A stretch of 51,375 nt of DNA, from IMG/VR virus record IMGVR_UViG_3300046808_000281, positions 1-51,375 of that record. One strand, written 5' to 3'. Positions within the stretch are counted from its first letter, which is position 1. The number at the start of each line of letters is the position of its first letter. A model generated the notes under the pieces. That model saw nothing but the letters and a program-made list of their open reading frames with translations. It was not told where the DNA came from and searched no databases. Below are positions 3,266-51,338 of this stretch, piece after piece. The position numbers and the translations under genes are program-made. Source of the stretch: a virus.

Positions 3266-3748
3266 ATGCTAGGTTCATTTGGTTTATGGGCATCTTCCAA
3301 GGGAATGAGAGTAGTCTCAGACCTTGTTGGGATGACTCGTACAGATGCTACCGCTAAAATTATTGCAGATGGTCTTGTCCTTGGAACAGAGACCCCACAG
3401 CAATTTACAAATTCTGCAGATGAGTCTAAACACAATAAGATTGTAGATCAAACTCCAGATGCAGGAGTCCAGGCACCATATGAATCTGCTGTAGATGTTG
3501 TTTATGGTGTCTTTAGCTTTAGCGTATTTGGTGTATTTGGATTTGTTCCAGCATTTGGTGTGTTTGGATTTACGCCTACGTTTAACGTATTTAGCTTTAC
3601 TGTTTTCAATGTATTTAGCTTTACACCATTTACCGTTTTTGGATTCTCATTCTCAGTATTTACCTTTACACCAACGTTTGCTGTGTTTGGATTCTCGTTT
3701 AGCGTATTCAGCTTTACTCCAACGTTCTCAGTATTTGGTTTTAGATAG
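3266..3748 (+). CDS. PASTA-domain protein with FG-rich phenylalanine repeat tail
   Basis: 160 residues. Residues about 15-79 match the PASTA fold (VVSDLVGMTRTDATAKI..., ...VDQTPDAGVQAPYESAVDVVYG), a module that in bacterial penicillin-binding proteins and Ser/Thr kinases binds peptidoglycan fragments. The remaining ~80 residues are an extreme repeat of xVFxF[T/V/S]Px F-type units (for example GVFGFVPAF, GVFGFTPTF, SVFSFTPTF) ending SVFGFR. Phenylalanine alternates with small residues, as in a beta strand with one aromatic face. A second protein (9807-10601) carries the same tail and the same last residues. Probably a cell-wall-binding virion protein; the tail's role is unknown. The 3' end overlaps the convergent endolysin by 8 bp. 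Confidence 0.65.
   Translation: MLGSFGLWASSKGMRVVSDLVGMTRTDATAKIIADGLVLGTETPQQFTNSADESKHNKIVDQTPDAGVQAPYESAVDVVYGVFSFSVFGVFGFVPAFGVFGFTPTFNVFSFTVFNVFSFTPFTVFGFSFSVFTFTPTFAVFGFSFSVFSFTPTFSVFGFR
3503..3745 (+). repeat. Coding repeat for VFGF/VFSF units (copy 1)
   Basis: About eight degenerate units of 21-27 bp encode [G/S/N/T/A]VF[G/S/T]F, often followed by [T/V]P[T/A]F. Codons vary between units (gtatttggattt, gtgtttggattt, gtttttggattc, gtgtttggattc), so selection is acting on the peptide, not on recent DNA duplication. Confidence 0.8.
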
Positions 3749-4301
3749 AATCAATATATCTCACGTAAGAGATATCACTATAGTTTCCACCAAATCGCTT
3801 TATGTCGTCAATGGCTGTTCTTTTTCCAGGGGCAGGAGAGTGAATCATCTTGCCATTTCCAATGTATATACCAACGTGGTATGCCTTTGAACTATTTTCA
3901 TAATGGAATGCAACAATATCCCCAAGAGCAGGTTCTGAGACTTTTTCTCCACCAAGTGCCTGAGCAGTTGCTCTATGTTCCAAGCTAATACCAAGTTGCT
4001 CATAGAACCACATGGTCAATCCAGAACAATCCCACCCAGATGGAGTGTGTCCAGAAAATACATATGATGTTTTATTTACATAGCTCTCTAGCTTGGATAT
4101 TGCTTTAGATATCTTCTTTGCATTTGCAGCCTTTTCAGCTTTTTCAATGCTAGCTGCTAAAAGCTTTTGTGCTTTTACAGAATCATATTCTGTTACGTAT
4201 TCGTAACGAACTGGATCTTCAGCTTTAGCTGGGGTTATAGAAGTTGTTAGTAAAAGTAGTGTAGATGTGGCAAAGCCAGCAATTTTAATAGTTTTATTCA
4301 T
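3741..4301 (-). CDS. Secreted NlpC/P60 peptidoglycan endopeptidase (endolysin)
   Basis: 186 residues, the only minus-strand gene. It has a classic Sec signal peptide: MNK, a hydrophobic stretch over residues 7-22, and cleavage predicted after AKA at 27. A short helical linker (residues 40-75) precedes an NlpC/P60 domain with catalytic Cys92 (DCSGL), His142 (YHVGIYIG) and likely third polar residue His154. Family members cut the peptide stems of peptidoglycan. With its own export signal it can reach the wall without a holin, as in other secreted endolysins; alternatively it is a host-derived wall hydrolase. AAGGAGG stands 7 nt before the ATG. A consensus minus-strand promoter lies about 180 nt upstream, giving a long leader. 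Confidence 0.88.
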   Translation of the reverse strand: MNKTIKIAGFATSTLLLLTTSITPAKAEDPVRYEYVTEYDSVKAQKLLAASIEKAEKAANAKKISKAISKLESYVNKTSYVFSGHTPSGWDCSGLTMWFYEQLGISLEHRATAQALGGEKVSEPALGDIVAFHYENSSKAYHVGIYIGNGKMIHSPAPGKRTAIDDIKRFGGNYSDISYVRYIDSI

Positions 4302-4536: not shown

Positions 4537-5049
4537 ATGGCAACTGGAAGATCAAATAACTACAACCTGCCGTTTCCACTAGCAGTAGATGCTGTAAACG
4601 TTCACGGTGACATAAAGAGTCTGACTGAAAGACTTGATGCCGTTCTACCTCAAGCATCATACGTAGACATTCCAGTAAAGAATGTTTCATCTGAACTTAT
4701 TCCAGGCGGATACCCAGTTACAATTTCTGGACACGATGGAACAAACGTCTTGATTCAGAAAGCAACAGCATCAACAACTACATCAATCCTTGGACTAACA
4801 AGAAGTGATATTGATGTGTCTGGTTCTGGAGTTGTTGTTGTAGCTGGAGTGATTAATGGAATAAATACTACATCATATTCTCCAGGAGCAATCCTTTACG
4901 TTGCTCAAAATGGTGGATTGACTGCAACTTTAGACGGAAGCCAGGGTACAGCAATTGCTACAGTTGTATACCCAGCAGTAAATGGTGCAATAATTGTTGG
5001 ATCAAAGTCCAATGCAACATGGGGATCGCTTAAAGCTGGTCTTTCATAA
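4537..5049 (+). CDS. Virion decoration/fibre protein with DUF2190-like beta domain
   Basis: 170 residues. A short helical start (VHGDIKSLTERLDAVLP) is followed by a beta domain of the type seen in phage decoration and short fibre proteins. Its strands run PVTISGHDG, VLIQKATAS, ILGLTRSDIDVSGSGVVVVAGVINGI, SPGAILYVAQNGGLTA, GTAIATVVYPAVNGAIIVG. Such domains provide capsid or fibre decoration rather than catalysis. It opens module B and is read from a leaderless promoter divergent from the endolysin. Family assignment is by pattern only. Confidence 0.55.
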   Translation: MATGRSNNYNLPFPLAVDAVNVHGDIKSLTERLDAVLPQASYVDIPVKNVSSELIPGGYPVTISGHDGTNVLIQKATASTTTSILGLTRSDIDVSGSGVVVVAGVINGINTTSYSPGAILYVAQNGGLTATLDGSQGTAIATVVYPAVNGAIIVGSKSNATWGSLKAGLS

Positions 5050-9806: not shown

Positions 9807-10601
9807 ATGGCAGCAGGTAAAAGAGCAGGTAGACATGCTCAGCAGTCTAATGATTTTCTACAGCCACTAGCACCAATTAATATTGTTGCTACTGATGTCG
9901 GAACAAATAGGGCATATGATAATGGTGCTGCCTCTGTAGCATTTGGATTGCCTGCTAATTCTCCAGCTGCTACTTCTTATACTGTCACAGCATCAACTGG
10001 TCAGACAGCTACTGGATCGTCTTCACCTATTGTGGTCGCTGGTATTGCTACAGGTGCAACTCCAACATTTACTGTAACTGCAACAAACAGCTATGGGACA
10101 TCTAGTGCCTCTGATGCATCATCTGCAATTACAATCACAACTGTTCCAGCTGCACCAACTGGAGTAAGTGCATCTTCTCCATCTGGAGCAAACTATGATA
10201 CAGTTACTTGGACTGCACCAGCAAATGGTGGTAAAGCAATTAGCAATTACTACGTTACGTCTGATGACGGTAAGACAGCCAATACCTCTTCTACTTCTGT
10301 AAATATTACTCAGGAGCAAGGTACAGCTCAAACATATACAGTTTATGCAGACAATGCTAACGGTAGATCTGCAGCATCTGCTGCATCTGGAAGCGTAACA
10401 ACATTCTCATTCGTGCCATTCTCAGTATTTAGCTTCTTTGGGGTATTTAGCTTCTTTGGAGTGTTTGGGTTCGTGCCAACCTTTGGAGTATTCGGATTCG
10501 TGCCATTCTCAGTATTTGGTTTCTTTGGTGTGTTTGGATTCGTACCATCATTTGGTGTATTTGGATTCACCCCCTCATTCTCAGTATTCGGCTTTAGATA
10601 A
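9807..10601 (+). CDS. Fibronectin-III-like protein with FG-rich phenylalanine repeat tail
   Basis: 264 residues. Two Fn3/Ig-like domains (about residues 25-115 and 115-198) show the usual 'P.aPtgvsasspsg...vtWtaPanGGkaIsnYyV.s.dg' pattern. Residues 200-264 are a repeat tail of VFGF/VFSF units with FF, VPTF, VPSF and TPSF linkers, ending SVFGFR, exactly like the product of 3266-3748. One in two to three residues of the tail is Phe. Fn3 domains are common on phage virions, where they bind carbohydrate. The tail could stick the two proteins together or to a membrane or wall. Ribosome site GAGGA precedes the ATG. Confidence 0.65.
   Translation: MAAGKRAGRHAQQSNDFLQPLAPINIVATDVGTNRAYDNGAASVAFGLPANSPAATSYTVTASTGQTATGSSSPIVVAGIATGATPTFTVTATNSYGTSSASDASSAITITTVPAAPTGVSASSPSGANYDTVTWTAPANGGKAISNYYVTSDDGKTANTSSTSVNITQEQGTAQTYTVYADNANGRSAASAASGSVTTFSFVPFSVFSFFGVFSFFGVFGFVPTFGVFGFVPFSVFGFFGVFGFVPSFGVFGFTPSFSVFGFR
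10404..10598 (+). repeat. Coding repeat for VFGF/VFSF units (copy 2)
   Basis: About eight units encode FSVFSFF, GVFGFVPTF, GVFGFVPF and similar. The unit differs slightly from copy 1 in having FF and VPF linkers, but the last unit and final Arg are the same. Confidence 0.8.
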
Positions 10602-10630: not shown

Positions 10631-10658
10631 ATATACATACATAGAACGGAGTATGAGG

Positions 10659-11318
10659 ATGTATAAGGACCAAACTCCCCTACGAAGCATTAGCAAAACA
10701 ACGCAGGGGCACAAATTTTTTGAACGCTATCTTGATAATGATCTAGATGTTTTAGCAAAAGAGCTACAGGCTAGATATGAGCTTATTGAACAGGCTAAGA
10801 TTCCAGGGGTAACCCCAGTAAGCCCGTTTGAGGCATGGAAAGATTCTAACAGTATTTCAACAATGAAGTGGAGACAATATAATGTCTTCCAATTCCACAT
10901 TGATGGAATCTATGAGCTATACAAGGCCGTTGGCGATATGGTTAGAGAAGCCTGTGACCACTACGAGCTTGATTTTGATGAGCAAAAGTTTATGATTCAG
11001 GGATGGTTTAATATAAACCACTCTGGTAACGGAAAGCTTAACTGGCATGAGCATGGTGGTCCTGGAGCACCAGATTTCCACGGGTATTATTCAGTTGCAG
11101 CAGAGCCTTCTTCAACACACTACATTGTTTTTGATAATGAGGTTGAGAATATCAATAAGAATAATCGTGCCATCCTGTCTGAGATGGGTCACCCACACGC
11201 AATGGGAGACTGGGACTGGGATGGACCAAGAATCACGGTTGCATATGACGTAACTCCACTGGAGTACTTGAAGCGTGGAGGACACTCTCAAGAGCAGCAC
11301 TGGATCCCATTGAGATGA
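10659..11318 (+). CDS. Putative 2OG-Fe(II) oxygenase, paralogue 1
   Basis: 219 residues from the second ATG, which is 7 nt after GGAG; the ATG at 10653 is only 1 nt after it. After a divergent N-terminal half (HKFFERYLDNDLD...) comes a double-stranded beta-helix-like core: QGWFNIN, then His130-Glu-His132, HGYYSVAAEPSSTHY, LSEMGHPH (His178/His180), and Arg191 in RITVAYDV. The order H...H...R fits 2OG-Fe(II) oxygenases of the PF13759-like type, but the first motif reads HEH, not the usual HxD, so the metal ligands need testing. First of three tandem paralogues; its stop overlaps the next ATG (ATGA). Substrate unknown. Confidence 0.6.
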   Translation: MYKDQTPLRSISKTTQGHKFFERYLDNDLDVLAKELQARYELIEQAKIPGVTPVSPFEAWKDSNSISTMKWRQYNVFQFHIDGIYELYKAVGDMVREACDHYELDFDEQKFMIQGWFNINHSGNGKLNWHEHGGPGAPDFHGYYSVAAEPSSTHYIVFDNEVENINKNNRAILSEMGHPHAMGDWDWDGPRITVAYDVTPLEYLKRGGHSQEQHWIPLR

Positions 11319-11992
11319 TCGCTATGACAAAGCCACCACAGAAGTTTTTTGAAAGATATGTCGATGTGACACAAGAAGAGTTGGACAGTCTTTATGATTT
11401 TTGTGTTGCTCGTGAAAAGGACATGCTAGATGGAAAGTTCCCAGGCATAGAGGCAGATGAGGCAAAATCATACCACGAAAAGGGTGGTATGATGACTAGA
11501 ACTCTTAGCAAGTATAATGTATTTCAATTACATCATCCAGTCATCAGAAAGCTTCTTGGCTCTGTAAGAGATATGACAAAAGAAGCATGTCAGTATTATG
11601 GCAAAGACTTTGAGTCAGAGGCATATTACATTCAGGGATGGATAAACATAGAGCCAGCTGACTATGGAGATGAAGATTTTTATGCCCAGACTATGATTGA
11701 GCCAAACCTTCATGAACATTGTGGTGGCCTTGGGATGCCTGACCTACACGGATACTTTTCAGTATTTGCAGAGCCATCTGTAACTCATTACAGAATTGAT
11801 AAGGTAACTCCATTTGAAAATGTTAATAAAAACTTCAGAGCTGTTTTGTCAGAAACTGGACACCCACACACACGTGGATGGTGGGGTAACAAAGAAAAGC
11901 GTAGAATAACCATTGCATACGATACTAGAAGTATTCATGATATTTCAAACGGAGAAGCTGGATTGGAGCAACATTGGATACCGCTAGTGTAG
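11315..11992 (+). CDS. Putative 2OG-Fe(II) oxygenase, paralogue 2
   Basis: 225 residues, tandem paralogue of the previous and following genes. Conserved points are FFERYVDV at the start, QGWINIEP, His133-Glu-His135, HGYFSVFAEPSVTHY, VNKNFRAVLSETGHPH (His183/His185) and Arg197 in RRITIAYDT, ending EQHWIPLV like paralogue 1 (EQHWIPLR). It starts at the ATGA overlap with paralogue 1; an ATG at 11324 is an alternative. The conserved C-terminal HWIPL suggests close common ancestry with paralogue 1. A short insert (about residues 115-128) before the HEH motif is its main difference. Confidence 0.6.
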   Translation: MIAMTKPPQKFFERYVDVTQEELDSLYDFCVAREKDMLDGKFPGIEADEAKSYHEKGGMMTRTLSKYNVFQLHHPVIRKLLGSVRDMTKEACQYYGKDFESEAYYIQGWINIEPADYGDEDFYAQTMIEPNLHEHCGGLGMPDLHGYFSVFAEPSVTHYRIDKVTPFENVNKNFRAVLSETGHPHTRGWWGNKEKRRITIAYDTRSIHDISNGEAGLEQHWIPLV

Positions 11993-12639
11993 TAAAAGAT
12001 CACAAATTTTTTGTCAGAGATCTGTCCATAGACCTTGAAAAACTAAAGGCTTGGACAATTGATCTTGACGATAGTATTAGATCTGGTAAGCTTGAGATAG
12101 GTGCTAGCAAAGAGATGCTAGATGTCTATCGTAACAGAACTTCTGGTGCTGGGACAGCTTTGCTCTCTCACTATAATATTTTTGAGATGAACAATCCAGA
12201 CCTGAATGTTCTTAAGAATGCAATCAACAATGCTTTGCTAGAGGCATGCGACTACTATGGCATAGACTATGACTCAGAAGAATGGTACCTGCACGGATGG
12301 TACAATAGAAATGATCAAGACGGCATGTGGGATGTATCACCTATTGACAATGAAGATAAGTGGCATGAGCACATGAATGGTGTTGGGGCTCCAGTATTCC
12401 ACGGTTACTACTGTGTAAATGCAGAGCCATCTGTAACAGTCTATAAAATATTTAAAAATCCAGAAAATATAAAAGTGAATGTCAATAAAAACAATAGGAT
12501 GATTCTTTCTGAAGTCGGACACCCACATGGAATGGGTAACTGGAGAGTTAGCGATCAAAGAATTACACTGGCATACGATGTAGCACCAAGAGCTTATATT
12601 GGTGATGAAGATGCAGAGACCTGGACAAGGCTAAACTAA
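11974..12639 (+). CDS. Putative 2OG-Fe(II) oxygenase, paralogue 3
   Basis: 221 residues, the most diverged of the three tandem copies. It keeps LHGWYNRND, His131-Glu-His133, HGYYCVNAEPSVTVY, VNKNNRMILSEVGHPH (His183/His185) and Arg196 in RITLAYDV, but lacks the HWIPL end. It overlaps the 3' end of paralogue 2 by 19 nt, and no later in-frame start precedes the conserved KFFVRDLS segment, so the overlap is real. Keeping three copies with identical presumed active-site residues argues for distinct substrates or partners, not decay. Confidence 0.6.
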   Translation: MDTASVVKDHKFFVRDLSIDLEKLKAWTIDLDDSIRSGKLEIGASKEMLDVYRNRTSGAGTALLSHYNIFEMNNPDLNVLKNAINNALLEACDYYGIDYDSEEWYLHGWYNRNDQDGMWDVSPIDNEDKWHEHMNGVGAPVFHGYYCVNAEPSVTVYKIFKNPENIKVNVNKNNRMILSEVGHPHGMGNWRVSDQRITLAYDVAPRAYIGDEDAETWTRLN

Positions 12640-12797
12640 TGAAAAACTGGCTTGTTAGAATAAAGTGTTTTATACTAGGACACAAAGTTATTGTTGGCAA
12701 TAAATGTCCAGTAACTGGTATTGTGAGGCTTGACTGTGAGTCATGTGGTGTATCTAACATGCCAAAGCATACAGACAAAGAGGGGATGTTTAGATGA
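12639..12797 (+). CDS. Small Cys-rich protein, DUF1660-like zinc-binding candidate
   Basis: 52 residues, read between paralogue 3 and the next oxygenase with a TAATG overlap on the left and an ATGA overlap on the right. The sequence has IKCFILGHKVI near the start, then KCPVT and DCESCGV. Cys10, Cys23, Cys33 and Cys36 with His15 could bind a zinc ion. The 'C..fGHk...C' opening recalls small prophage DUF1660 proteins. Perfect packing between neighbours supports it as a real gene despite its size. Confidence 0.6.
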   Translation: MKNWLVRIKCFILGHKVIVGNKCPVTGIVRLDCESCGVSNMPKHTDKEGMFR

Positions 12798-13321
12798 ATA
12801 AGACTGATGACATTAAATACATCAAAGGGTTTATGCCAAAGGATGTAGTAGATACCATCTTTGAGTATGCAAAGAAGTATGACTTAGAGTTCGATGAGTT
12901 TGGAAATCACGAAAAAGAATTCACTGTAAATGTATTCAAGAGATCTGATGAAGAGACAATGCATGTTAAGAATCTTGTAACTGAGTGGGGACTAAAGGTC
13001 TATGAGTTTGTTCTGGATACGTATGGTGGAGATTTTAAGTCATATGACCCAAACATGTCCCATATTGCTAGGTTTGAGCCAGGGTGGGGAATGCATGAGC
13101 ATTTTGATGCAAGCAAGCCAAATGATATTGCTACATTAATTTATATTAATAATAATTACTCTGGTGGAGACATATACTTCCCAGAATATGGTATTTCGCA
13201 TAAACCAGAGCCAGGAGACCTGCTAACTTTTCCAGACAATCCAGATTATGTGCATGGGGTAAGAGCAATATCTGATGGAATTCGTTACACAACTCCACGC
13301 TGGTTTACACGTATAGTATGA
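12794..13321 (+). CDS. Prolyl-4-hydroxylase-like 2OG-Fe(II) oxygenase
   Basis: 175 residues with a complete canonical motif set: His103-x-Asp105 (HEHFDAS), His154 (DYVHGVRAI) and Arg164 (RYTTPRWF) for 2-oxoglutarate. The framework GGDIYFPEYGISHKPEPGDLLTFPD is the signature of the P4H-type beta-helix. Family members hydroxylate prolines or other side chains using Fe(II), O2 and 2-oxoglutarate. It closes a four-oxygenase cluster. A collagen-like fibre with Y-position prolines, encoded at 478-1182, is an attractive candidate substrate, but this is inference. The TGA stop contributes the TG of the weak promoter for the next gene. Confidence 0.85.
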   Translation: MNKTDDIKYIKGFMPKDVVDTIFEYAKKYDLEFDEFGNHEKEFTVNVFKRSDEETMHVKNLVTEWGLKVYEFVLDTYGGDFKSYDPNMSHIARFEPGWGMHEHFDASKPNDIATLIYINNNYSGGDIYFPEYGISHKPEPGDLLTFPDNPDYVHGVRAISDGIRYTTPRWFTRIV

Positions 13322-24826: not shown

Positions 24827-25465
24827 ATGGCATATACACGTGGTACAAGTGCGAACATTATCGTTGGTGCAGCTGCCCTCTTCACATACGAAGACGGTGT
24901 GCTTACTGATGCAGATCTTCCAGCATACGCAACAGGTGAATCGTTTGTAGAAACACTACAGACTGGAGCCTCTGCACTAAACAACTGGACATCTGATGAT
25001 GGATTCCGCAACGTTGGTTATACCAGCAACGGTCTTGAGCTACAGTTCCAACCTGACTTCGGTGAGGTTTCAGTGGACCAGGTTCTTGACGTAGCCAAGC
25101 TTTACAAGCAAGGCATGCAGGTAAACATGAATACTACATTTGCTGAAGCTACACTAGAAAATCTTCTATTCGCTCTCGCAAGCAAGGACACCAACCTGAC
25201 TTCAGGTTCAGGTATCCAGACTCTGAATCTTTCAGCAGGTGAGCTTGGTGAGTGCCCAGTAGAGCGTGGTCTAGTTGCAGTTGGTCCTGGTACAGGAGAC
25301 TGTGCAGCAAATGAGGAAAGAATCTATGTTGCTTACCGTGCACTCTCAATTGAGAATGTTACAGTAGCAGCAAAGCGTGACGAGGCTACTCAGTTTGAGG
25401 TGTCTTTCCGTCTGCTTCCAAATGACTCAGCGTCATACGGTAAGATTGTTGACCGCACATTCTAA
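24827..25465 (+). CDS. Major tail (tube) protein
   Basis: 212 residues from the ATG at 24827, 5-6 nt after AGAGGTG; a GTG at 24818 is less likely. The order of tube-protein features is seen: N-terminal AYTRGTSANIIVGAAALFTYEDG, a central loop, GLELQFQPDFGEVSVDQVLDVAKLYKQG with the helix, then ENLLFALASKD and the final VTVAAKRDEATQFEVSFRLLPNDSASYG. It is followed at once by the strongest terminator in the window and precedes the tail chaperones, which is the expected place. It polymerises as rings to form the tail tube. Confidence 0.75.
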   Translation: MAYTRGTSANIIVGAAALFTYEDGVLTDADLPAYATGESFVETLQTGASALNNWTSDDGFRNVGYTSNGLELQFQPDFGEVSVDQVLDVAKLYKQGMQVNMNTTFAEATLENLLFALASKDTNLTSGSGIQTLNLSAGELGECPVERGLVAVGPGTGDCAANEERIYVAYRALSIENVTVAAKRDEATQFEVSFRLLPNDSASYGKIVDRTF

Positions 25466-25483
25466 TAATTTAATATAGAGAAG

Positions 25484-25520
25484 ACTGCCCTGGGAAATAT
25501 CCTGGGGCAGTTTTATTTTT
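25484..25520 (+). terminator. Rho-independent terminator after the major tail gene
   Basis: An 11-bp stem (ACTGCCCTGGG with CCTGGGGCAGT, two wobble pairs) has a 6-nt loop AAATAT and is followed by TTTATTTTT. It is a textbook intrinsic terminator that isolates the abundant tube message; the next promoter begins at its last base. Confidence 0.88.
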
Positions 25521-25528
25521 GCTATAAT
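25520..25528 (+). promoter_or_regulatory. Extended -10 promoter TGCTATAAT, leaderless start
   Basis: TGCTATAAT ends exactly 6 nt before the ATG at 25535, with no ribosome site. The region where a -35 would lie is the terminator stem, so the promoter must rely on its extended -10. Confidence 0.78.
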
Positions 25529-25534
25529 GTAATA

Positions 25535-26236
25535 ATGGCAACTAGCGTACATAAAACAGCAATGGTAGAGACTATGGATGGGACATCTATCTTAGTTGCC
25601 CCACTAAAAATAAAGTATCTTAGAGAGTTTATGGATTCTTTTAACTTTATGAAAGATGCCCCAAATGATTCTATTGCCCTGACGTTCATGTCAGATTGTG
25701 TCAGGGTAGCTATGCAACAGTTCTACCCATCTATATCTACAGTATCTCAGGTAGAGGATATGTTTGACCTATCTACTATGCGAACAATCCTACATATTTC
25801 TGCTGGTATTAGTGTTGATCCAGAAGAAGAGGATTTGGCAGAGCAGGCAAAGTCAGACAAAGAGGGTAACTCTTGGGAGACTTTCGACCTAGTTGCACTT
25901 GAGGCAGAAGTGTTCTCTCTTGGGATATGGAAAGATTTTGATGATCTAGAACAGTCTCTATCTCTACAAGAATTAACCGCTATCCTTGAGGCAAAGAGAG
26001 AGCGTGACTACGAAGATAAAAAGTTTGCAGCTGCTTTGCAGGGGGTAGACCTAGATGAGCAATCTGGCAAGAAAAAAGAAGAAGATCCATGGGAAGCAAT
26101 GAAGGCAAGAGTCTTTAGCGGTGGTAAAGCAAATGACTCAAACGACATATTAGCATATCAGGGACAGAATGCAAACAAGGCTGGATTTGGAATTGGCATG
26201 GGCCTAGGCTATGAAGATTTAAGGCAAAAATCTTAA
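25535..26236 (+). CDS. Tail assembly chaperone, long form
   Basis: 233 residues. The N-terminal ~95 residues (DGTSILVAPLKIKYLREFMDSF..., CVRVAMQQFYPSIS, VEDMFDLSTMRTILHISAG) align with nearly the whole of the next gene. The remaining ~140 residues are helical and charged, with an extended polar end. This is the size and plan of the frameshifted long chaperone (lambda gpGT type), but here it is one open frame with its own promoter. Such proteins coat the tape measure and recruit tube subunits. Translated from a leaderless start, which may set its level relative to the short form. Confidence 0.65.
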   Translation: MATSVHKTAMVETMDGTSILVAPLKIKYLREFMDSFNFMKDAPNDSIALTFMSDCVRVAMQQFYPSISTVSQVEDMFDLSTMRTILHISAGISVDPEEEDLAEQAKSDKEGNSWETFDLVALEAEVFSLGIWKDFDDLEQSLSLQELTAILEAKRERDYEDKKFAAALQGVDLDEQSGKKKEEDPWEAMKARVFSGGKANDSNDILAYQGQNANKAGFGIGMGLGYEDLRQKS

Positions 26237-26242
26237 TCCTCT

Positions 26243-26251
26243 ATGCTATAA
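26243..26251 (+). promoter_or_regulatory. Extended -10 promoter TGCTATAAT for the short chaperone/tape measure
   Basis: TGCTATAAT gives a start near 26258 and a ~32-nt leader with the ribosome site AAGGAGG at 26278-26284 before the GTG at 26290. Confidence 0.65.
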
Positions 26252-26289
26252 TAATATATAACCACAAGATATGTTCATAAGGAGGAACA

Positions 26290-26607
26290 GTGTCAACAAC
26301 TACTAATGAAGACAAGAAAATCACTCTTATTGATGGAACAGAGATTTCAATCAGACCGCTAAAGGTTTCTCTATTGCGTCCATTTTTGAAAAAGTTTGAG
26401 GGTATCGCAAAGGTAGCAGATAACAACGACAAGTCTATGGACTTGCTAATGGAATGCGTACAAATTGCAATGCAGCAATACAAGCCAGAATTGGCTGAAG
26501 ATATTAAGGTTCTAGAAGACAACCTAGACCTTCCAACAGTGTACAAGATTATCGAAGAGGCTTCTGGATCGAACCTTGGAGAGGGCCTTGCAGCACTCAA
26601 AAACTAG
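26290..26607 (+). CDS. Tail assembly chaperone, short form
   Basis: 105 residues starting at a GTG 5 nt after AAGGAGG. Conserved with the long form at DGTEISIRPLKVSLLRPFLKKF, ECVQIAMQQYKPEL, LEDNLDLPTVYKIIEEASG. It corresponds to the lambda gpG-type short chaperone, normally produced from the same start as the long form. Here it is a separate gene with its own promoter and a strong ribosome site, so the short form can be made in excess by expression strength. The C AAA AAC sequence at its end is not followed by a long -1 frame. Confidence 0.65.
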   Translation: MSTTTNEDKKITLIDGTEISIRPLKVSLLRPFLKKFEGIAKVADNNDKSMDLLMECVQIAMQQYKPELAEDIKVLEDNLDLPTVYKIIEEASGSNLGEGLAALKN

Positions 26608-26622
26608 TAGAGGTGCTAATTA

Positions 26623-29600
26623 ATGGCTGATATCCAATCAAATATTCGTGTCAATATAGATACTGCCGAAGCTCTGGCATCTATTAAGGCACTCCAAAGA
26701 CAGATATCAACCTTCCAGAAGGAGATGGCATCATCTTCGACTGCAAATGCTCTAGCTGCAAAAAATCTACAGAAATCATTAATAGATGATATTAATGCTA
26801 CTGGAAAGTTTTCTGCAAGCCTAAAGACAATTAGCTCTACTACAGACACATTTACAAAAGCACTTGAGAAGAATAAGCTCTCGCTTGGGCAGTATTTCAA
26901 ATATGGAATGGCTTCAAGCAAGAGCTTTTCTCGTATGTTCCAAAACGAGTTTGACACAGTTAATAAGGTTGCTCGTGAAAGAGTAAAGGATCTTCAAACA
27001 CAATATATCTCTCTTGGTAGAGATGCAAGCGGTGCACTAAAGTCTATTGCTGTTAGACCACTAGCACTTGACATGGAAGACCTTGGAACCAAAGCACAAA
27101 TCGCTGCACAGCGTACACAAATTTTTAATCAGATTCTTAAGCAAGGATCTACAAACCTTCTAAACTTTGGTAAGAATACCCAGTGGGCTGGTCGCCAGCT
27201 TATGGTTGGTTTTACCATTCCGCTATCTATTTTTGGAACTGCAGCTGCACAAGAGTTTAAGAAGGTTGAAGAGGCTTCGATTAAGTTTAGAAGAGTATAC
27301 GGCGATGCCTTTACTCCAGTAGAGCAAACTAACGCCATGCTTGACCAGATTAAAGAGCTTGGAATTGAGCTAACTAAGTATGGAATTAGCCTTGACCAAA
27401 CTCTAGGTCTGGCAGCAGATGCAGCAGCAATGGGTAACACTGGACAAAAGCTTATTGCTCAGGTAGAACAGTCAACAAAGCTTGCAGTTCTTGGACAGAC
27501 AGCAACCCAAGATGCATTGGCTACCACCATCTCTCTTACTGACGCTTTTGGATATTCAACAAAACAGCTTGCAGACAAAACAAACTTCCTTAACGCTGTA
27601 GAAAACCAAACAGTTCTTTCTATTGAGGACTTGACAACTGCAATTCCAAAGGCTGGACCAGTAGTTAAGCAGCTAGGTGGTGACGTAGAGGATCTATCAT
27701 TCTTCATGACAGCGATGAAGGAAGGTGGAATTAATGCATCAGAAGGTGCTAACGCTCTAAAGTCTGGTTTGGCATCTTTGATTAACCCAACAGAAAAAGC
27801 AAGAATGATGCTTCTTGGTATGGGTATCGATATGCGAAAGATTCTTGATACCAACCAGGGAAATGTTTCTGGCGTTGTAGTAGACTTTGCAAAGGCACTT
27901 GATCAACTAGATCCGACAACAAGAGCACAGGCAATTGAGCAGCTTTTCGGTAAGTTCCAGTTCTCACGTCTATCTACTCTATTCCAAAACGTAATTGCTG
28001 AGGGAACTCAGGCACAGCGTGTTCTAGAGCTAAGCAGTATGACAGCATCAGATCTTGCTGCACTATCTGCAAAAGAGCTTGCAACAGTAGAAGAGTCACC
28101 TCTATATAAGTTCCAGGCTGCACTTGAAAAGTTCCAAGCAGCAATGGCACCAGTTGGTGAACAGTTCATGAAGATGGTAACTCCATTTATTGAGTTTGGA
28201 ACAAAGATTTTGAACATGTTTAATGGCATGACTGATGGTGCAAAGGGATTCATTACCACAATTGTAGGTTTGGCTGGTGTAGTTGCTCCAGTGTTTATTA
28301 TGGCATTTGGTCTTATCGCTAACGCTCTTGCGAACGGTATGAAGGGGTTCTTGTTCCTAAAGAATGCACTACAGGGAACACTAAAGGAAACTAATGATCT
28401 AGGTGAGCAAACTCAGTACATGACATCTGAGCAACTGCAAGCAGCAGCTGTAGCATCATCGCTTGATCAGGTTCATGGAAAACTTGTTCAAACATTTACA
28501 TCTGAAGCAGGTGCTATTGATAAGCTTCGTACTGCAATGGAGAGAGCAGCACTTGCACAAGCTAAGTTTGGTGGTGTTAGCGTAGCTCGTGGAGCTAAGC
28601 CAAAGAACTTTGCAGATGGTGGAATGGTTGTTTCTGGTCCAGGTGGACCAAAGGGAGACAAGATTCCTGCAAACCTTTCTGACGGAGAAGTTGTTCTATC
28701 TGCAGAGACAGTACAGGAAAATCCAAATATTGTTGCAGCACTTCTAGCAGGTGGAAAAGTAAAGATTCCAGGATTTAAAAAGGGTGGTGGCCCAGGATCT
28801 CCAAAGGGTTCTATATCATTTGGCGACTCCTCTATGGACATTAATGCTTCACAAACAGCAATAGACAGAATTCAGACAATCCTTGACGGTATAACAGATG
28901 ACTTTATTAAGGTAGATCAAAAGGGTGACGTAATTGAAAAGCTATTTGCTTCTTTGGCAACTATGTCAGAAGAAGGCAAGGTAAGCCTAAAGAAGTTCTT
29001 CCAGGCATTTGCAGTAGCAGCAGAGGATGTTAGCGGTCAGAATGTCTCTAATCAAGTAAATAAGTTCTATGCAGAAAACCTTGGCGTAAAGGGTAAGCCA
29101 ATGAAGTATTCTGCAACTGGTGTTGGAACTATTCAGCAGCAGGCAGATAAGGCAGGAAGAGCAGACGAGCTTCAGAGAGCAAGAATGCGTCTTGCTGCAG
29201 AAGAGTCTCTAGGACTTCCAGGCGGACAATACCAGATTGACAGAGCACACAGATTGCCAGTTGGTGGAGCTGCAAAGTCGTTGCCAGAAGCATGGGACAT
29301 GAAGGGCGTTAACCCTCAGACACACACTGAAAATCAGATTTCAAATTACTTAGCAGGAGAGCAAAAGGTAAAGGCTTTCTATGACAAGTACATGGCACAG
29401 CTAGAAAAGATGCGTACCGAGGGCAAGGTGTCTGAGGACCAATATCTATCTATTAAGAATAAGATTAATTCAAACCTTGCTCTTTCAGAAGTAGAGCTTG
29501 CAACCCAAGCAGACGTTCTTGAAGCAATCACTGCAGAAGACAAGAAAACTTGGGAAAGCTCTAAGGCTATGCAGAATGCATACAATGACTCAAAGAGAGC

Positions 29601-32600
29601 AGTTGCAGGTGCAAGAGTTTCTGGTGGTCTATCTACAAATCCTAATGTTGGTGTAGCAAGTTCTGCAGAAGCAACATCTTTTGCAGCTGGCATTGATGCA
29701 GCTAAGGATAAGGTTAGAGCTGCAGGAACAAGAACAGTGCAGAATTTTGCAGATGGCGTTAACGCAGAGTCTGAGTCTGCATCCCCATCAAAGAAGACAA
29801 GAAGAGCTGCCAAGAACCTCGTTGACGGAGTTGTTGAGGCAATCAACGAGGGTAAAGATGATGTAAAAGCAGCTGCAGCAAATAACCAAACCGCAAAGGC
29901 AGAAGCAAGTAGACAACAGCTTTACGGTGGACAGATGCCAACATCACAAGATAAGTCTATGAGACGAAACCGTGAAAGAAAGTCTACGGTTGGTGCTGCT
30001 CTTGAAAAGCAACAACAGAGAAATGTTGCAGCATTTAACCAAAGTGTACAGAAAACTTCAGACTCATTTGCTAAGTTTAATTCTAAAATGATGGCATTCT
30101 CTAGCGTACTAGGCTCTGTATCTCTTATTGCTGGAATGTTTGGAAATGACCTTGGTGGTCTTGGTGCAGCTATTACTGGAGTTTCTTCAGTTATGTTTAC
30201 ATTGTCAATGATGTCTAACATGCTTATTAATGCTGAAAGACTTCAGCTTGCAATCAAGGCAGCATCATATGTTGCACAGCAAGCATTTAATACTGGACTG
30301 GGCAGATCAGTTGCAGTTGCTCGCATGTTTGTTCTTGGACTACTTGGAACTAACGTGGCTCAGACAGCTGCCACAGCATCAACCACTGGACTTGCAGTTG
30401 GTGCAGGTGCAGCAGCACTATCTCTATGGTCTCTAATTTGGCCAATTGCTGCTGTTGTTGCTGCTATCGCAGCACTTGGATTTGGAATTAAGGCACTATT
30501 CGATTGGTTTGGAGATCAGAAGGCACAGATTACTGGGCTTGGTGATACTGCTGCTATGGCTGCAGAGAAGGTGGCTGCACTTGGCGAGGCACTTGGAGTT
30601 ACGGTAACTGATATTGATTTGTCTAATCGTGTTGGAGTTGAATCTGGTACAACTGCAGATCAGCAAACAATGCAGCAAAAGGTTGAGGCATCAACTTATG
30701 GATCTGAAGGAAAGAGCTTTACAGAATACTTTGGCGACAACATTACAGCAGTTAAGAATGCTACAAAGGGAGATGCCACAGCTGCACTTGAATCACTAGC
30801 TCTTCAGCTAGGAAACTCTGGTTTTGGTCCTGAGACAGTAGATGGAATCATCAGAGCCATTGCATCTGCAGCTGAAAGAAAAGACCTTGACCTAAGTTTT
30901 GCTAGTGTTAATCTTGGTCTAGAAACACCAGAAGGTATGGCACAGCTTGACAAGCAAGTTGCATCTGCAGCAAAGACTCTTAATGATATCGCAGGAAAGC
31001 AGGGAACACAGCTCACCAACTTAGTTGCTGGTGGTGCATACAACTCAAATGCTGCAGCAAACACCCTGTCTACTGATGAAACAAAGTCTGTAGAGGTTGC
31101 TGGTGGACAAATTGGAACATCGCTAAAAGCACTCTCTAATAGCTTTGAAATGGGAACCATTGATGCAACTACACTTATAGACAAAATATCTCAAGTTGGT
31201 GCAAGCTTTGATTCCATGACAGATGAGGCTAAAATTATTGCATTGCCACAGATTGCAGAAGCGATGGGAATGACAGAAGCCATTGAAGGTGTAAATAATA
31301 TCAATGACCAGTTCCTTATCCTAAAGGCAACTGCAGCTGGTGTTACAATTACTGATGATCAGCTAGAAGTTTTGAAAAAGGGTAAAGCTGCAGGTACAAA
31401 GTACACAAAGGTACTTCAGACAATTACTGGTGCAATTAATACTGCTGCCGTTGCTACAGAAAATCAGAATAAGGCACAGGAAGCACTTAACGTATCTCTT
31501 GCTGTGCAGGAGCAGGCAGATAATGTTCAAAAGAATATTGACACATATAACTCATTACTACAGCTAGAGGGCGTAACCCTTACTACTGCAGAGGCAATTA
31601 GGTATGCAAGCAATGCTGCAATTCAAGATGCTATGGCTAAAGTTGAGGCAGCCAAGGGCACTGACCAGTATTCGACTGCATTGAATAATCTTAAGGGTGC
31701 ACTAAATAACCTAGTAACTGCAGATAGACAATGGGAAAAGATTAACTCAAAGGGTAGTGGTGGACAGAAGTCAGCATATCAGCAAGCAATTGAGGCTCTG
31801 AGAAATCAAAGAAAAGAAATTCAGCAAACTGTTAGAGCTTATGGCCTTATGACTAAAGCTAACATTAGTGCAGGTGCTGCATGGAAGTATGCAAATGACG
31901 CAACTATTGCTGCTGGTTTGGCTACTGCAAAAACTGCAAAGCAGATTAAGGCAATTACAGATGCAATCAAACTTCTTGAAAGAGAAAACCTAAAGAACGC
32001 ATTTGGAAACTTTACAAAGGAAAATGCTGCAGCAAAAGAGACACTTAACAGTCAGCTAAAGATGGCAAGTGCATTAGGTGCAGTTGGTGCTTCTGCAGAA
32101 GAAGTTGACGCATTGCTTTCAGATGAAAACTTGTCAGCAGGATTTAAGGCAGGAACTGTTAGTGCTAAACAGCTAGAAGATGCCCTTGCAAGAATCCGTG
32201 CGAACAAAGAGATTGAAATTAAGATTAAGATGCAGACTGCAGAAGGTATGCAGGAACTATTTGATGATGCATATAGCATGGTGCAGGAATCGTTTGATGC
32301 ACAAGAAACTCAAATTGATCTTGACTTTAGATTTGGCACAAACCTGAGTGGCAAGAATAAAGACCTAATTAACACTGACAAGATTGATGAAACAATTGAA
32401 AATGCTCAAAATCAAATTGCTGACCTTGCCTACCAGGTAGATGACTACGAAGCAGGAATTCAGCAGATTCAGTGGCAAGAAGATGAGATCAACAAGAAGT
32501 ATGAAGAGCGTAGTAAAGCACTTGATAGAATTCAAAAGGCAAATGACGCTATCACAAGGCAGAATAAAGCTCAGCTAACTATTGCAGATGCTCTGAGCCA

Positions 32601-33669
32601 GGGTGATATCGCAGCAGCAGCTAAGGCCATTGAGGATGGTAGAGCTCAGCAAGCTGAAGCAGCCATGACATCTCAGAGAGAAGCCCTTGATCTAGCCAAG
32701 CAGCAGGAACTTGGAGCACTAGCTGATGCCCAAGGAAGAACTCGCTCCCAGCTTGAGGCATCCATTCTAGATCTTAAGAAGCAAATCTTCAAGATTGAGG
32801 AAGATACTCTAGAGCCAGCAACAGAGGCTAGAAGACAAGCAGACCTTAAAAAGCAAGCTGCCATTGATAGTATCAAGGTTCTTGGCTTAAATAAAGATGA
32901 GTGGGAAAAGGTAAAGAACAAGGTAGATATGGCTAGAGTAAATAGCGATAAATATCAAAAGGCAATTGGTGCTGCTCTAAAGACCGTAGAAGATTTAGTT
33001 AAAAAGTGGGGTGATCTGGACGGTAAGGTTGTAACAACAACACACAAGATTGTTGAGGTAACTGAAAAGGTAGGCTCAACTGGTTCTGGTGGCTCTGGTG
33101 GCTCTGGTGGATCTGGTGGATCTACTAATAATAACACCAACTCAAACGCAAATCCAAAACCTGGAGACAAGAAATATGTTGGAAGCATGCTTTTAACATA
33201 TACCAAGCAACTTGTAAAGGGTACTGGAGTATATAATGGATCTCAATTTGTTCCTGCAAAATATGAATATATTTGGAAGTCTGGTGGTGGAATGGTTCCA
33301 CAATATTTTGGAAACGGAGGACAGCCAAGGGGTACGGACACAGTCCCTGCCATGCTGACCCCTGGAGAATTCGTAATGCGTAAGAGTGCTGTTAGCAAAT
33401 ATGGCATTGGGACAATGAAGGCAATCAACAATGGAAGCTTTGTTCCAAAGATGTCAGCACCTGGAATCCAATCTCCATCTGGAAGCTCTTTTGTTCCTAC
33501 GATTGTTAATGAAGGAACATCTGCAACAAATAATAACTCTTCAGTGTATAATTATAACCTAAGCGTAAATGTTGGCTCTTCAAATGCAGGGGCTCAGGAC
33601 ATTGCAAATGCAGTAATGCAGAAGATTAGGTCAGTAGATTCACAAAGAGTAAGAGGAGTTAGACTTTAA
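26623..33669 (+). CDS. Tape measure protein
   Basis: 2348 residues, the longest gene. Residues ~150-480 match the TP901-type tape measure core (QWAGRQLMVGFTIPLSIFGTAAAQEFKKVEEAS, EQLFGKFQFSRLSTLFQNV). Hydrophobic segments lie near residues 541-575 and 1258-1295. Long coiled-coil regions fill residues ~1900-2150. Two 'G.DxxPAxLxxGExV' units occur, at ~664-700 (KGDKIPANLSDGEVVLSAE) and ~2225-2255 (RGTDTVPAMLTPGEFVMRKS), and a Gly/Ser linker at ~2152-2167. At about 0.15 nm per residue the tail would be near 350 nm. No lytic domain is apparent. Confidence 0.92.
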   Translation: MADIQSNIRVNIDTAEALASIKALQRQISTFQKEMASSSTANALAAKNLQKSLIDDINATGKFSASLKTISSTTDTFTKALEKNKLSLGQYFKYGMASSKSFSRMFQNEFDTVNKVARERVKDLQTQYISLGRDASGALKSIAVRPLALDMEDLGTKAQIAAQRTQIFNQILKQGSTNLLNFGKNTQWAGRQLMVGFTIPLSIFGTAAAQEFKKVEEASIKFRRVYGDAFTPVEQTNAMLDQIKELGIELTKYGISLDQTLGLAADAAAMGNTGQKLIAQVEQSTKLAVLGQTATQDALATTISLTDAFGYSTKQLADKTNFLNAVENQTVLSIEDLTTAIPKAGPVVKQLGGDVEDLSFFMTAMKEGGINASEGANALKSGLASLINPTEKARMMLLGMGIDMRKILDTNQGNVSGVVVDFAKALDQLDPTTRAQAIEQLFGKFQFSRLSTLFQNVIAEGTQAQRVLELSSMTASDLAALSAKELATVEESPLYKFQAALEKFQAAMAPVGEQFMKMVTPFIEFGTKILNMFNGMTDGAKGFITTIVGLAGVVAPVFIMAFGLIANALANGMKGFLFLKNALQGTLKETNDLGEQTQYMTSEQLQAAAVASSLDQVHGKLVQTFTSEAGAIDKLRTAMERAALAQAKFGGVSVARGAKPKNFADGGMVVSGPGGPKGDKIPANLSDGEVVLSAETVQENPNIVAALLAGGKVKIPGFKKGGGPGSPKGSISFGDSSMDINASQTAIDRIQTILDGITDDFIKVDQKGDVIEKLFASLATMSEEGKVSLKKFFQAFAVAAEDVSGQNVSNQVNKFYAENLGVKGKPMKYSATGVGTIQQQADKAGRADELQRARMRLAAEESLGLPGGQYQIDRAHRLPVGGAAKSLPEAWDMKGVNPQTHTENQISNYLAGEQKVKAFYDKYMAQLEKMRTEGKVSEDQYLSIKNKINSNLALSEVELATQADVLEAITAEDKKTWESSKAMQNAYNDSKRAVAGARVSGGLSTNPNVGVASSAEATSFAAGIDAAKDKVRAAGTRTVQNFADGVNAESESASPSKKTRRAAKNLVDGVVEAINEGKDDVKAAAANNQTAKAEASRQQLYGGQMPTSQDKSMRRNRERKSTVGAALEKQQQRNVAAFNQSVQKTSDSFAKFNSKMMAFSSVLGSVSLIAGMFGNDLGGLGAAITGVSSVMFTLSMMSNMLINAERLQLAIKAASYVAQQAFNTGLGRSVAVARMFVLGLLGTNVAQTAATASTTGLAVGAGAAALSLWSLIWPIAAVVAAIAALGFGIKALFDWFGDQKAQITGLGDTAAMAAEKVAALGEALGVTVTDIDLSNRVGVESGTTADQQTMQQKVEASTYGSEGKSFTEYFGDNITAVKNATKGDATAALESLALQLGNSGFGPETVDGIIRAIASAAERKDLDLSFASVNLGLETPEGMAQLDKQVASAAKTLNDIAGKQGTQLTNLVAGGAYNSNAAANTLSTDETKSVEVAGGQIGTSLKALSNSFEMGTIDATTLIDKISQVGASFDSMTDEAKIIALPQIAEAMGMTEAIEGVNNINDQFLILKATAAGVTITDDQLEVLKKGKAAGTKYTKVLQTITGAINTAAVATENQNKAQEALNVSLAVQEQADNVQKNIDTYNSLLQLEGVTLTTAEAIRYASNAAIQDAMAKVEAAKGTDQYSTALNNLKGALNNLVTADRQWEKINSKGSGGQKSAYQQAIEALRNQRKEIQQTVRAYGLMTKANISAGAAWKYANDATIAAGLATAKTAKQIKAITDAIKLLERENLKNAFGNFTKENAAAKETLNSQLKMASALGAVGASAEEVDALLSDENLSAGFKAGTVSAKQLEDALARIRANKEIEIKIKMQTAEGMQELFDDAYSMVQESFDAQETQIDLDFRFGTNLSGKNKDLINTDKIDETIENAQNQIADLAYQVDDYEAGIQQIQWQEDEINKKYEERSKALDRIQKANDAITRQNKAQLTIADALSQGDIAAAAKAIEDGRAQQAEAAMTSQREALDLAKQQELGALADAQGRTRSQLEASILDLKKQIFKIEEDTLEPATEARRQADLKKQAAIDSIKVLGLNKDEWEKVKNKVDMARVNSDKYQKAIGAALKTVEDLVKKWGDLDGKVVTTTHKIVEVTEKVGSTGSGGSGGSGGSGGSTNNNTNSNANPKPGDKKYVGSMLLTYTKQLVKGTGVYNGSQFVPAKYEYIWKSGGGMVPQYFGNGGQPRGTDTVPAMLTPGEFVMRKSAVSKYGIGTMKAINNGSFVPKMSAPGIQSPSGSSFVPTIVNEGTSATNNNSSVYNYNLSVNVGSSNAGAQDIANAVMQKIRSVDSQRVRGVRL
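33079..33123 (+). repeat. GSGGSGG-type linker repeat in the tape measure gene
   Basis: Four to five GGT/GGC-TCT-GGT triplet repeats encode a flexible (Ser-Gly-Gly) linker between the helical rod and the C-terminal domain. Confidence 0.7.
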
Positions 33670-50526: not shown

Positions 50527-50794
50527 GAGCAAGAGGATAGGTGCTAAGCAGCATAAGAATTCTGGTAGGAATACCAAGAAGGGCGATGCTACTTGGCATA
50601 ACTTCACTGTTGACTTTAAAGAATATCCAAAAGGATTCACAGTTAACAAGGATAACTGGGCCAAGGCAGTAACTGATGCAATTCGAAACGGCAATGACCC
50701 AGCAATATTTGTTGTGCTTGGTGAGGGCAATCAGAAAGTAAGGCTTGCAATCGTTGAGCTAGAGCTTCTAGAGCAGCTTATAGATGATGTATAA
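50510..50794 (+). CDS. Putative Holliday junction resolvase (Hjc-like PD-(D/E)XK fold)
   Basis: 94 residues. The order KRIGAKQHKNSGRNTKKGDATWHNFTVDFKEYPKGFTVNKDNWAKAVTDAI...PAIFVVL fits a compact Hjc/endonuclease fold: an early helix with a KQxKNSGR loop, GDA (Asp of the PD motif), then VDFKEY, giving D-x-K, and a helix with W-x-K. Typical Hjc enzymes have 130-150 residues, so this is a short version. Its place next to the recombinase fits a role in resolving branched DNA before packaging. The stop TAA forms part of the next promoter's TATAAT. Confidence 0.6.
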   Translation: MSERSESKRIGAKQHKNSGRNTKKGDATWHNFTVDFKEYPKGFTVNKDNWAKAVTDAIRNGNDPAIFVVLGEGNQKVRLAIVELELLEQLIDDV

Positions 50795-50795
50795 T
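50790..50795 (+). promoter_or_regulatory. -10 promoter, leaderless start, overlapping a stop codon
   Basis: TATAAT preceded by TG; the TAA stop of the resolvase gene is part of the hexamer. It ends exactly 6 nt before the ATG at 50802 and has no ribosome site. Confidence 0.75.
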
Positions 50796-50801
50796 AGTAG
50801 C

Positions 50802-51338
50802 ATGACACAGCATATTAAAAATCTATTTGATGCAGAAGAGGTTGCCCTCATAGAGCAGATCGTCAATGACGAAAAGTCAAGACGTAAGGTATATGTTTGG
50901 GATGAGTTTAGCGGTCAGCAATTTCCGCAGGGAATAATGGATGATTCTGACTACATGGTGCAAAATGTTAGTCTTGGCAAAATTATGTTTAACCTAAGCC
51001 TACCAGATTTGATTAAGTCTAAGTTAGTAGATGTTGCTAAGGCTGGTGGTTTCGATGTTAACTACTTTTGTGCTACATATACAGAGTACTCAGCTGACTA
51101 TGGAAATCCAGTACTCACACCACATAAAGATATGCAAAATTTCTGTCTTATAGACTATCAGCTAGATGCCAACACTTCCTGGCCACTATTTGTTGAGGAT
51201 GATACGTTTGATCTAGATGTAAATGACGGACTAATGTTTCTCCCATCAAAGATGATGCACGGTAGACCAGATAAGGCATTTACTGATGGGGAATACGTCA
51301 AGATGATTTTCTTTGATATGAAGTTGGTGAATGAATGA
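50802..51338 (+). CDS. 2OG-Fe(II) oxygenase
   Basis: 178 residues from the leaderless ATG at 50802; an in-frame ATG at 50784 lies upstream of the promoter and is unlikely. Motif set: His108-Lys-Asp110 (TPHKDMQ), a sandwich LIDYQLDANTSWPLFVEDDTFDLDVNDGLMFLPS, then His153 (MMHGRPD) and a basic residue at 155 or 167 for 2-oxoglutarate. This fits the P4H/phytanoyl-type beta helix. It is the fifth oxygenase-like gene in the window and is expressed separately from the cluster at 10659-13321. Substrate unknown. Confidence 0.7.
   Translation: MTQHIKNLFDAEEVALIEQIVNDEKSRRKVYVWDEFSGQQFPQGIMDDSDYMVQNVSLGKIMFNLSLPDLIKSKLVDVAKAGGFDVNYFCATYTEYSADYGNPVLTPHKDMQNFCLIDYQLDANTSWPLFVEDDTFDLDVNDGLMFLPSKMMHGRPDKAFTDGEYVKMIFFDMKLVNE

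Follow-up and report, generated by a model that had tools for sequence, protein, structure and literature searches.

Two adjacent genes of an uncultured phage, preceded by the major tail protein gene and followed by the tape measure gene, very probably encode the long and the short tail assembly chaperone, i.e., the equivalents of lambda gpGT and gpG, with a dedicated gene for each form in place of a single gene read with a programmed −1 frameshift. Few features of long-tailed phages are as well conserved as the chaperone frameshift, and the usual explanation is that a fixed ratio of the two forms is needed. Herein, one phage family encodes the same two proteins in two mutually exclusive ways, of which one comes with the slippery site and the other lacks it; the family thus allows one to ask what the frameshift is for, how a ratio is set without it, and how a two-product gene becomes two genes. 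The window analysed is the whole 51,375-base IMG/VR virus record IMGVR_UViG_3300046808_000281 (GC 41%), and the features of the locus are summarized in Table 1. The upstream neighbour occupies the position of the annotated major tail proteins in Streptomyces phages, and the long and short genes are placed between it and the tape measure gene, as are chaperones of the G/GT kind.

Table 1. Features of the tail assembly chaperone locus in the window (IMGVR_UViG_3300046808_000281).
Feature	Position	Strand	Remarks
Major tail protein gene (upstream neighbour)	24827..25465	+	PHROG 2175, E 2.9e-33; weaker match to PHROG 885 (major tail protein), E 3e-4
Terminator-like hairpin and T run, between the major tail gene and the chaperone cassette	25481..25521	+	stem 25481-25514, 15 pairs
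Extended −10-like element of the long gene, TGCTATAAT	25520..25528	+	ends 6 nt before the ATG; leaderless start
Long tail assembly chaperone gene	25535..26236	+	233 aa, ATG; N domain, aa 1-98, and T domain, ~aa 109-233, fused in one reading frame
N-T junction of the long gene	25817..25876	+	site of the slippery heptamer and −1 overlap in frameshift-type relatives; heptamer absent here
Extended −10-like element of the short gene, TGCTATAAT	26244..26252	+	37 nt before the start of the short gene
Shine-Dalgarno sequence of the short gene, AAGGAGG	26279..26285	+	read from the sequence
Short tail assembly chaperone gene	26290..26607	+	105 aa, GTG; N domain only, paralogue of the N domain of the long gene
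Tape measure gene (downstream neighbour)	26623..33669	+	2348 aa; tblastn to annotated Streptomyces phage tape measure proteins, best listed E 8e-78

The initial annotation had proposed that the 233- and 105-residue proteins upstream of the tape measure gene share an N-terminal domain, and both this claim and the coordinates and lengths of the two reading frames proved right: the N domains of the pair are identical at 29/93 positions (31%), with 59% positives (BLASTP, E 2e-16), and the short gene is recovered when the window is searched with the long protein (E 3.9e-13). Furthermore, the N domain of both proteins matches PHROG 10504, and the T domain of the long protein matches PHROG 10474. Similarity to annotated tail assembly chaperones was detected by tblastn for the long protein with Coruscant (E 2e-28) and for the short protein with Navo and others (E 4e-13). 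Pfam gave no match above its cut-offs for these proteins, and the PDB sequence search returned chance matches only, with no similarity to solved chaperones. Both genes are under purifying selection, with dN/dS of about 0.04-0.13.

The initial annotation had also suggested a structure comparison, in which unrelated folds would have counted against paralogy. In the AlphaFold2 models (pLDDT 75.6 for the short protein and 73.1 for the long protein, of which the N domain reaches about 90), the order of elements is the same, two strands followed by helices. The HK97 tail chaperone gp13 (2ob9) is the best re-aligned PDB match of both models, with a weak Z of only 4.4, and ORF12 of lactococcal phage p2 (3d8l, Z 3.2) is also among the re-aligned PDB matches of the short model. 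Neither model had a significant match in the PDB by Foldseek (E above 1), and in BFVD the highest-ranking match is the tail assembly chaperone of an uncultured phage (E 3e-7). The re-aligned PDB matches of the predicted structures, weak alone, point to the expected chaperone family.

The initial annotation had asked for a search of related phages for the ancestral frameshift arrangement, and relatives with a frameshift arrangement were found. The annotated phage records matching the long protein comprise 127 Streptomyces phage records and five Rhodococcus phages, and those matching the short protein are Streptomyces phages only. The cultured relatives examined, i.e., Stanwilliamsviridae and the Rhodococcus phages Trina and Francesca, carry a single N gene, which is followed by T in the −1 frame. 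Gene order in the cultured frameshift relatives Coruscant, Patelgo, Braelyn, Beuffert, and Francesca is that of the window, and the chaperone product is annotated as joined (frameshifted) in Patelgo and Francesca. The Stanwilliamsviridae phages (Coruscant, Patelgo, Braelyn, Beuffert, and Circinus) share with the window homologous N and T domains, the order of major tail, chaperone, and tape measure genes, and, preceding the chaperone gene, a comparable terminator and promoter-like element; they differ in that T lies behind CCCAAAT or CCCGGAA, a second N copy was not found in them, and the start is leadered with a Shine-Dalgarno sequence. The host of the window phage would be an actinobacterium, if its relationship to the Streptomyces and Rhodococcus phages is the sole guide. 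A scan of genome contigs for prophage relatives yielded one locus, of the frameshift kind, in a MAG labelled cyanobacterium.

Layout classes were assigned over all fetched loci with small purpose-built HMMs for N and T. The first set of loci contained 118 with a fused long gene followed by a separate N paralogue (N=T N) and 56 with one N and T in another frame (N~T); three scans added near the branching point contributed 48 and 84, respectively. The 306 classifiable loci thus comprise 166 N=T N and 140 N~T loci, which are counts in a query-driven sample including near-identical contigs and not prevalences. None of the 306 loci is an intermediate with a frameshift pair and an extra N copy, despite the three scans aimed at the branching point, and none has a fused gene without the short paralogue; the short gene is found in every complete fused-gene locus. 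The existence of two exclusive layouts supports the proposal of the initial annotation that a duplication stands in place of the frameshift.

The two layouts are also distinguished by their slippery sites. The frameshift arrangement is uniform in its direction, the shift being −1 in 105/105 unique N~T loci, and a canonical in-frame X XXY YYZ heptamer lies within the overlap in 98 of them (GGGAAAC in 45, CCCAAAC in 28, CCCAAAT in 17, and others in 8). The other seven loci (L088, L090, L104, L107, L108, L111, and L112), kin of Coruscant and Braelyn, have CCCGGAA where relatives have CCCAAAT; the −1 frame encodes T in these loci too, but CCCGGAA is not a canonical slippery heptamer. By contrast, the junction lacks a heptamer in 69/85 unique fused genes. 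In the window, too, it holds none and T is in frame with N, and the long gene is therefore not a frameshift pair. The only in-frame heptamer of this gene, CCCAAAT at 25660, was rejected as a slippery site, being a dead end inside the N domain where the −1 frame reads CCC AAA TGA, an immediate stop. A frameshift connecting the long gene to the short one, which would have spoken against two independent genes, was likewise rejected, because the short gene is complete alone and no T domain lies between the short and tape measure genes; no slippery site joining the genes was found in the window.

These observations bear on two alternatives to the assignment of a long and a short chaperone. The fused gene could still yield both forms by a hidden slip, as in dnaX, with the short paralogue serving another role in the tail. 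The CCCAAAT at 25660 might be cited in its favour, but for the position and stop noted above; so might two of the 85 fused genes (L016:3534 and L017:3534), the only ones that retain an in-frame CCCAAAT at the ancestral slippery position, possibly a relic of the frameshift. However, the junctions without a heptamer prevail, about ten of the 18 heptamers held by the other 16 junctions are poly-A types expected in AT-rich DNA, and the short gene, constantly present beside the fused gene, is kept by purifying selection, all of which makes a hidden slip very improbable. Hardly more credit, and if anything slightly less, is given to the idea that the short protein is a different tail protein which merely shares the N domain and is not a chaperone form. 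PHROG 10504 is indeed listed as of unknown function, but 93% of the length of the short protein aligns with annotated Streptomyces phage chaperones that are likewise placed before the tape measure gene, and HK97 gp13 ranks best among the re-aligned PDB chains.

The sharpest contrast lies in the start signals of the two genes, which differ as the initial annotation had noted in reading the long gene as leaderless and the short gene as preceded by AAGGAGG. The long gene of the window is leaderless by the sequence criterion of a −10 element 6-7 nt before the start with no Shine-Dalgarno sequence. Counts were taken after similar upstream regions had been collapsed. TANNNT lies exactly 6 nt before the start codon in 61/65 distinct long-gene regions (59/65 with the TGn extension) and at this spacing before 1% of random ATGs in the window, and no Shine-Dalgarno sequence of at least four bases was found in any of the 65 long-gene regions. 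A Shine-Dalgarno sequence (at least four matching bases) precedes all 77 distinct short-gene regions and all 80 frameshift-type N genes, TGnTANNNT is located 15-55 nt upstream in 77/77 and 72/80 of them, respectively, and leaderless starts are found in neither group (0/77 and 0/80). The hairpin of the window, directly before the promoter-like element of the long gene, has a folding energy of −24.1 kcal/mol (z −6.4), and a terminator-like hairpin is found upstream of 67/75 long, 40/46 frameshift-type, and 1/70 short genes. It follows from these counts that the short gene retains the frameshift-type start, that the start of the long gene differs, and that both genes belong to one cassette behind a terminator. 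Judging from upstream sequences, this phage seems to employ the leaderless mode more generally. Elements resembling TATAAT lie 6-7 nt before the start codons of the genes at 4537, 5070, 5761, and 17006 of the window, and these genes lack a Shine-Dalgarno sequence.

Regarding the evolution of the two genes, a frameshift gene was probably duplicated and then split into long-only and short-only genes. In the N trees, the long N domains are all united in a single clade (support 98-99/92), and the short N domains are grouped with those of frameshift phages mostly of the GGGAAAC type, the long clade lying outside this group (98/92). This grouping is what would be expected if the long gene were a xenologue acquired from a related phage and not an in-place duplicate, the original gene having lost T and become the short gene. 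However, the long N domains evolve faster, and their deep position is perhaps a branch-length effect; furthermore, the test does not reject a tree in which the long and the short N domains share one clade (p-AU 0.41). A xenologous origin is accordingly regarded as rather unlikely, and duplication is preferred. In the T tree that has the Rhodococcus phages as its basal group, every one of the deepest lines is of the frameshift kind and the fused forms are nested (the drawn root being the midpoint). Neither T tree rejects a single origin of the fused form (p-AU 0.54 and 0.30); because the T domain is short (79 usable columns), these trees are poorly resolved and need 2-4 state changes, and the addition of taxa gave the same poor resolution. 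The simplest reading is a single replacement of the frameshift by duplication and fusion; several origins of the fused form, or a reversal to the frameshift form, are possible.

The steps of such a replacement may be proposed as follows. Upon duplication of the frameshift gene, one copy would have been locked into the long frame, losing the slippery site and gaining a leaderless start, and the other copy would have kept the promoter, leader, and Shine-Dalgarno sequence and would make the short form only. In lambda, gpG forms a coat on the tape measure protein, and gpGT, the less abundant form, uses T to recruit tail tube subunits; by analogy, the short form may coat the tape measure protein and the long form may bring in the tail tube protein via T. 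From these roles, more short than long protein is expected to be needed here. As read from the upstream sequences, an excess of the short form could arise by transcription of its gene from its own promoter together with read-through from the promoter of the long gene, and strong Shine-Dalgarno initiation on the short gene would add to this excess. The initial annotation had attributed the ratio to the strength of translation initiation, which is probably an incomplete account when taken alone, because a conserved promoter-like element precedes each of the two genes and a terminator between them is usually absent. A broader picture is offered tentatively, as less likely than not to hold in full: the frameshift ratio was replaced once, long ago, by duplication in a large uncultured phage family, and stoichiometry was moved to two promoters and two initiation modes (leaderless for the long form and Shine-Dalgarno for the short form), such that the ratio of long to short could respond to the translation state of the host as a slippery site could not.

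Several known systems can be compared with these genes. Lambda gpG/gpGT and HK97 gp13/14 are likewise two chaperone forms with a common N domain, encoded upstream of the tape measure gene, and the fold predicted here weakly matches HK97 gp13, although both lambda and HK97 employ programmed frameshifting and no sequence similarity to solved chaperones was detected. The two-gene principle itself is already known, and the same general layout is reported for T4-like phages: according to the statement in the PRFect article (PMC10885494, citing Vladimirov, Gautam and Davidson 2022, Virology 566:9-15), some of these phages encode the short form by itself and, in another gene, a fusion of the short form to the downstream part, without frameshifting. 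The window and the 166 loci have this combination of a short gene and a fused long gene with no frameshift; the likeness is one of layout, as described in that statement, and not shown descent. T4-like phages are contractile-tailed, whereas the present phages are an uncultured family related to Stanwilliamsviridae Streptomyces phages, in which frameshift relatives survive alongside and the long and short genes differ in their mode of initiation. Microbacterium phages of cluster EA have no evident frameshift, and their chaperone reading frames are reported to be apparently expressed separately, but the description of the two frames mentions neither paralogy nor a fused long form (PMC7302621). 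The open-licence literature searched contained no report of this family, of coexisting strategies among relatives, or of a split between leaderless and Shine-Dalgarno starts.

Additional features were noted by eye elsewhere in the window. Three adjacent, similar proteins of ~220 aa with HEH...HGYY... motifs (10653-11318, 11315-11992, and 11974-12639) look like 2-oxoglutarate/iron oxygenases, and two more possible proteins of this type are encoded at 12794-13321 and 50784-51338. The proteins encoded at 3266-3748 and 9807-10601 have unusual C termini with many repeats of an aromatic motif like FGVFGFVPTFSVFGF, which in one of the two come after apparent fibronectin-like domains. On the opposite strand in the tail fibre region, a putative NlpC/P60-like cell-wall hydrolase with a signal-peptide-like start is encoded at 3741-4301 (minus strand).
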